Shown here piece after piece: positions 9,331 through 11,222 of a stretch of 34,346 bases of DNA. The stretch is from contig CANIVT010000019.1 of NCBI GenBank assembly GCA_947471565.1, forward strand, positions 1-34,346, written 5' to 3'. The notes under the pieces are model-generated. The model did no database searches. It was not told the origin of the DNA and saw only the letters and a list, made by a program, of their open reading frames with translations. Numbering within the stretch: the stretch's first letter is position 1; each line of letters starts with the position of its first letter. The stretch is from Spartobacteria bacterium (lineage in GTDB: Bacteria; Verrucomicrobiota; Verrucomicrobiia; Chthoniobacterales; UBA6821). The position numbers were made by a program, and so were the translations under genes.

Positions 9331-11222
<1,892 letters not shown>

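Follow-up and report, generated by a model that had tools for sequence, protein, structure and literature searches.

A Glu-type ammonium transport protein paired with a twin-His paralogue in Verrucomicrobiota, and the repeated interchange of His and Glu at the first pore position of prokaryotic Amts

Two amt-glnK units and the pore residues of Amt1

The window, that is, the whole stretch of 34,346 nucleotides that was analyzed (GenBank assembly GCA_947471565.1, contig CANIVT010000019.1), carries two amt-glnK units on its minus strand. The two Amt genes, amtB1 and amtB2, are the only ones found in the whole genome, and a PII gene lies downstream of both. The features to which we refer are as follows.

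9331..9669, minus strand: glnK1, PII protein downstream of amtB1 (PF00543)
9714..11222, minus strand: amtB1, Glu-type (E-H instead of H-H) ammonium transport protein Amt1, 502 aa (PF00909; Glu orthologues in five other species of the genus)
10014..10016, minus strand: codon of His403, the second twin-His residue (AmtB His318), invariant among the 201 Amts that are 300 residues or longer
10026..10028, minus strand: codon of Val399 (AmtB V314), Val/Ala in Glu-type and Thr in most verrucomicrobial His-type Amts
10155..10157, minus strand: codon of Gly356 (AmtB G271), Gly/Ala/Thr in Glu-type and Val in most verrucomicrobial His-type Amts
10458..10460, minus strand: codon of Ala255 (AmtB N170), Ala in verrucomicrobial Glu-type and Ser/Thr in His-type Amts
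10464..10466, minus strand: GAG codon of Glu253, AmtB His168 position (direct read and alignment)
10473..10475, minus strand: codon of Met250 (AmtB T165), bulky in most verrucomicrobial Glu-type Amts and Thr in His-type
11278..15270, minus strand: dabA and dabB, between the two amt-glnK units (PF10070, PF00361)
16247..16273, minus strand: terminator hairpin and T-run 3' of glnK2, a similar hairpin being present here in almost every genome read from the genus
16344..16682, minus strand: glnK2, PII protein downstream of amtB2 (PF00543)
16715..18211, minus strand: amtB2, twin-His ammonium transport protein Amt2 (His250/His400), likely ATG start at 18211 (PF00909)
17462..17464, minus strand: codon of His250 of Amt2 (AmtB His168), direct read
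18256..18271, minus strand: sigma-54-type promoter TGGCATGGGGATTGCT, 44 bp ahead of amtB2, conserved at 13 of 13 amtB2 loci in the genus

A longer open reading frame with a GTG at 18379 is probably not the start of amtB2 because the sigma-54-like promoter falls inside it; with the ATG at 18211 as the start, the first pore His is residue 250. On the 3' side of glnK1, window positions 6095-9192 (minus strand) hold an ABC transporter/ATPase and HlyD-like membrane-fusion pair, which five further genomes of the genus share at this place. Between the units (window 11278-16264), dabA and dabB are accompanied by a divergent lysR gene; within the genus, only G000, G009, and G020 have this insertion at their amt locus.

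The original prediction held that Amt1 has Glu253 where Amt2 has His250, and that the second His lies 150 residues further on in both, leaving the alignment unambiguous. Direct reading bears this out: the plus strand at 10464-10466 is CTC, which gives GAG (Glu253) on the minus strand, and the spacing from first to second pore residue is exactly 150 residues in Amt1 (to His403) and in Amt2 (to His400). In an unambiguous alignment to the solved structure of Escherichia coli AmtB, Glu253 takes the position of His168 and His403 that of His318, while D245, W225, F184, W297, F300, and S304 match D160, W148, F107, W212, F215, and S219, respectively. The S1 site, the Phe gate, and the counterpart of Asp160 are thus all present (W225, F184, F300, S304, and D245), the lower pore is hydrophobic, and every pore and gate residue tested is kept apart from the first His. 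Profile searches with PF00909 (cut-off 23.2 bits) scored 358 bits for Amt1, over positions 1-399 of 399, and 380 bits for Amt2. The twin-His motif is typical of Amt/Mep/Rh proteins and not strictly defining, as Mep1/3 also lack the first His; the pattern of that Mep1/3-type class, Glu at the first and His at the second position, is the one found in Amt1. The top-scoring PDB chain for Amt1 is 2NOW, the sequence of which has Glu at the AmtB 168 position, and which we take to be E. coli AmtB H168E, a laboratory mutant of the twin-His protein (Javelle 2006). Judged by its sequence, Amt1 is a true member of the Amt family of ammonium transport proteins, paired with a PII protein. The window rests on a single assembly, but a sequencing or assembly error (GAG for CAC) is refuted, with negligible residual probability, by the two base changes that it would need, by GAG in five other assemblies, and by Glu in further lineages.

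Distribution and repeated origin of Glu-type Amts

Glu at the first twin-His position has been treated as a fungal variant, with a role stated to be unclear (PMC3647058, PMC7048316, PMC9040831), and in the open-access literature, subscription papers being outside the search, we found no report of a natural Glu-type Amt in bacteria. We scanned the DNA of ∼85,000 species genomes with the degenerate pattern D-[FY]-A-G-G-x-V-V-E. Among the 80 matches listed, 66 are true Amts and 14 are not; tallies by pattern are therefore upper bounds. Most of the Glu-type Amts among the matches listed belong to Actinomycetota (Streptomyces, Nocardia, Mycobacterium, Acidimicrobiia, and small-genome Actinobacteria), the others to methanogens, Clostridia, Planctomycetota, Pseudomonadota, a Cyanobium (cyanobacterium), and Verrucomicrobiota. 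The original prediction had implied that the Glu form is rare in bacteria; Glu-type Amts are in fact widespread in prokaryotes. When 50 genomes from the Glu matches listed were searched whole by pattern, about half held Glu-type Amts only and the rest held His-type as well. Streptomyces, Nocardia, and small-genome Actinobacteria (L032, L042, L074, and other loci) appeared Glu-type only with the pattern used, and in these groups Glu is perhaps the usual residue. Within the class of the window, by contrast, Glu-type Amts are uncommon, with a pattern tally of 19 in 384 genomes as the upper bound, and nearly all Amts found in a sample of Pseudomonadota have His, two of the Glu matches in that sample not being Amts. 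The matches G957:C9 and G1019:C30 (Pseudomonadota) and G595:C37 were rejected as Glu-type Amts, as there is no Amt in them.

A tree of 201 Amts, built with the twin-His site removed and with fungal sequences left outside, requires 16 His/Glu changes, 14 of them on supported branches, so that His and Glu have been interchanged at least 14 times across this set. A careful tree of the verrucomicrobial clade requires four such changes (4-5 in bootstraps), and there the Glu form is derived from local His-type Amts. Within Verrucomicrobiota, one common origin of the Glu form, or its transfer, was rejected, since the AU test excludes one Glu clade (p_AU 3.5e-58). The four lineages are A, the genus of the window plus a relative; B, several families including Spartobacteria; C, an Akkermansiaceae-labelled MAG (L103/L240); and D, a family of small genomes. 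Each of the four has tandem pairs of a Glu and a His copy, and such pairs occur independently in Microbacteriaceae/Micrococcales and in a clostridial MAG. His-type copies are nested among Glu-type Amts in the Microbacteriaceae (Rhodoluna and relatives; L065, L070, and L090), which suggests that Glu may also have reverted to His following duplication.

Four further positions change together with Glu when Glu-type copies are compared with their sister His copies. Position 314 (AmtB numbering) goes from Thr in the His-type to Val or Ala in the Glu-type and position 271 from Val to Gly, Ala, or Thr, both in all four verrucomicrobial lineages; position 170 goes from Ser to Ala and position 165 from Thr to Met, Phe, or Tyr, each in three of the four, the latter also in the clostridial pair (Tyr). 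V314 is part of the hydrophobic pore section below the twin-His pair (PMC7447429). The number of shared changed columns besides the Glu site, two, is not unusual against His/His controls, which share 2 on average and at most 9, for the most part in fast-evolving columns, but positions 165, 170, 271, and 314 change in only 0, 1, 1, and 2 of eight His/His control comparisons, respectively, and are thus columns that otherwise rarely change. Sign tests over the wider tree are weak (p 0.02-0.13), with residue classes chosen after the fact. It has been proposed that "other specific residues" are needed to accommodate Glu (PMC7048316), and positions 165, 170, 271, and 314 may be candidates for these; we treat them as a lead.

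Conservation, loss, and promoters within the genus

Within the genus, sampled by 16 genomes, an intact Glu-type orthologue is present in six, the window and five relatives; the latter are 82-93% identical to Amt1, the closest being that of G009 (93%). All have the GAG codon, and the conservation of Glu predicted for related genomes therefore holds in all six intact orthologues, including the dabA-adjacent one in G009. His is kept in every His-type paralogue read in the genus. Pairwise dN/dS of the Glu-type genes is ∼0.04-0.12, similar to that of the His-type genes, and synonymous divergence among the Glu-type orthologues exceeds 1, near saturation, for most pairs; Glu is conserved under purifying selection.

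Elsewhere in the genus the gene has decayed or is absent. In G021 the Glu-type gene is a disrupted pseudogene, and in G012 a 73-residue remnant is left, while in G010 (L189), G017 (L190), G007 (L191), and G015 (L195) amtB1 is missing between glnK2 and glnK1 with both PII genes present (in L189 the tandem PII pair spans 11683-12507). No Amt remnants were found in these four glnK2-glnK1 spacers, which points to clean deletions or to amtB1 never having been there. In the same four genomes, PII seems to outlive its Amt partner. The layout that best fits all loci of the genus is amtB2-glnK2-terminator-amtB1-glnK1-ABC-HlyD, interrupted between the two units by dabAB and lysR in the lineage that comprises the window, G009, and G020. 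Given the orthologues, the dN/dS values, the remnants, and this layout, amtB1 probably dates far back in the genus; it would have been under selection where it was kept and lost repeatedly while its PII stayed.

The two units differ in their promoters. A sigma-54-type site (pattern TGGCA[CT]-N5-TTGCT) was found ahead of amtB2, at a distance of 31-44 bp, in each of 13 genomes from the genus, and upstream of amtB1 in 0 of 7; the gene for the sigma-54 factor is present in the genome of the window. In that genome (2.28 Mb) the exact pattern occurs only four times and its reversed control three times; one site by itself therefore carries little weight, and its conserved position carries much. Three of the four fall within the 34-kb window, namely the amtB2 site, 191-206 (plus strand), and 4942-4957 (plus strand); the second is just ahead of a porin-like gene and the third ahead of a transglutaminase-like open reading frame. 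Across the verrucomicrobial clade, at a threshold of at least 10 of 11 matching positions, sites precede 37 of 61 His-type genes versus 0 of 17 Glu-type genes (Fisher p 2.7e-6, a value that ignores kinship). In lineage D the Glu gene is upstream and the site lies between the genes, before the His gene; lineage C (L103/L240) has a site at neither copy; and two of the Glu genes in lineage B are preceded by weak matches (9/11). The terminator hairpin 3' of glnK2, seen in almost every genome read from the genus, indicates that the two amt-glnK units are probably transcribed apart, and the promoter suggests that amtB2-glnK2 is probably made under nitrogen starvation.

Functional interpretation and comparison with known systems

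In published transport work, AmtB-H168E gave 22.3 nA versus 3.4 nA and a Km of 12.9 mM versus 0.8 mM ammonium, without a K+ current (PMC9040831), and in oocytes Mep1 is electrogenic and Mep2 electroneutral, with Mep2-H194E showing a raised Vmax and a shifted pH optimum (PMC7048316). The kinetics and mechanism that we predict for Amt1 and Amt2 are drawn from these studies of AmtB-H168E and Mep1/Mep2. We propose, with a probability of roughly 0.55, that the two proteins act as two gears, the twin-His Amt2 serving as a starvation scavenger and the Glu-type Amt1, with its own PII, as a low-affinity, high-flux, proton-carrying route. An ordinary twin-His Amt would have been duplicated, the first pore His of one copy would have become Glu along with a few neighboring pore residues, and the Glu copy would have been kept beside the twin-His copy as the second gear. 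Under nitrogen starvation, amtB2-glnK2 would be transcribed from its sigma-54 promoter for high-affinity, selective uptake, while amtB1-glnK1, outside sigma-54 control, would provide a lower-affinity, higher-flux electrogenic route for richer ammonium or another pH; this timing of expression of each copy is what we infer from the promoters. Of the original prediction, the statement that the window holds two Amts of opposite pore type, each with its own PII, stands as made, and the suggestion that they are differently tuned channels is strengthened by the sigma-54-type promoter that the His copy alone has, the difference in kinetics being predicted. Against this two-gear reading, Glu is not needed for electrogenicity, as wild-type AmtB is electrogenic in proteoliposomes (PMC7447429). 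Moreover, many Actinomycetota appear Glu-type only with the pattern used, where Glu apparently serves general uptake, so the split cannot be universal. The promoter exceptions in lineages C and B, and the unremarkable number of co-changing columns, also weigh against it.

An alternative that we consider unlikely, and the best of those remaining, is that Glu is near-neutral at a tolerant site and that Amt1 and Amt2 do the same job, differing mainly in expression. AmtB-H168E still allows growth at low ammonium (PMC3647058), and both the seemingly Glu-only Actinomycetota and the repeated interchange of His and Glu speak in its favor. However, Glu is rare outside a few groups, as in the sample of Pseudomonadota where nearly all Amts have His, it is invariant once gained in the genus, the promoter split tracks the residue, and nearly invariant residues change along with it. 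Improbable is the view that Amt1 is a sensor or transceptor that binds ammonium and signals through GlnK1 with little flux. Kuenenia Amt5, a non-transporting sensory Amt, is a precedent (PMC10433425), and the retention of glnK1 where amtB1 is cleanly missing (G010, G017, G007, and G015) implies a role of its own for the PII protein; yet Amt1 keeps its pore and gate residues and its hydrophobic lower pore and has no extra domain, AmtB with Glu at this position is active and faster (PMC9040831), and the fungal Glu accompanies loss, not gain, of signaling (PMC7048316). Most improbable of the three is that Amt1 works as part of the DabAB inorganic-carbon pump, for instance in pH balance during bicarbonate accumulation: amtB1 adjoins dabA in the window and in G009, a neighborhood to which the original prediction referred, but three genomes of the genus (G011, G016, and G013) have the Glu orthologue and no dab genes in the stretches read (only 6 kb for G013), dab sits with amtB2 on another contig in G020, and no dab genes lie near any of the 66 Glu-type Amt loci among the scan matches listed. 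This missing co-occurrence largely refutes the idea, and a tie between the dabA neighborhood and Glu was rejected. Most members of the genus have no dab at their amt locus, and the dabA neighborhood is a later insertion.

Returning to the two-gear reading, we tentatively extend it, at somewhat below even odds, to bacteria at large, which would repeatedly have evolved two-gear uptake by tandem duplication, change of His to Glu, repacking of pore residues, and placement of the Glu copy outside sigma-54 control, with the His copy still induced by nitrogen starvation, a convergent counterpart of the fungal Mep1/Mep2 split. What is new here is the sigma-54 split between the copies and the co-changing residues; of interest besides are the many independent origins in bacteria and archaea, several of them as Glu/His sister pairs in one genome. 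Tandem pairs with split regulation suggest a built-in division of labor, and the sigma-54 split is a physiological hypothesis testable by expression data alone. The Glu/His sister pairs are natural replicates for testing the role of the residue and which accommodating residues it needs, a question raised for Mep1.

The original prediction drew a parallel with fungal Mep1/Mep3, and rightly so (PMC9040831, PMC7048316): both have Glu first and His second, and both are kept beside a twin-His paralogue, which in fungi is Mep2. Unlike Mep1/Mep3, Amt1 is bacterial and PII-paired, has an independent origin within Verrucomicrobiota, lacks the phosphorylation and filamentation context, and is known from sequence. 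With E. coli AmtB H168E (2NOW) it shares the same residue at the same position, whereas that protein is a laboratory mutant without the co-changing residues of natural Glu-type Amts. Amt1 resembles the AmtB family and the glnK-amtB operon in its fold family, S1 site, Phe gate, C-terminal GLDxxxHGExxY tail, and adjacent PII gene, as in GlnK-regulated AmtB, and from this adjacent gene and conserved tail we infer that a PII T-loop may block its pore; it differs in the gene order amtB-glnK, in Glu as the first twin-His residue, and in a Glu unit without a sigma-54 promoter. The Actinomycetota Amts at the loci read (Streptomyces, Mycobacterium, Nocardia, and others) likewise have Glu at the first and His at the second position, but they are distant from Amt1 (∼40-45% identical), and there the Glu-type protein is often the sole Amt found in the genome.
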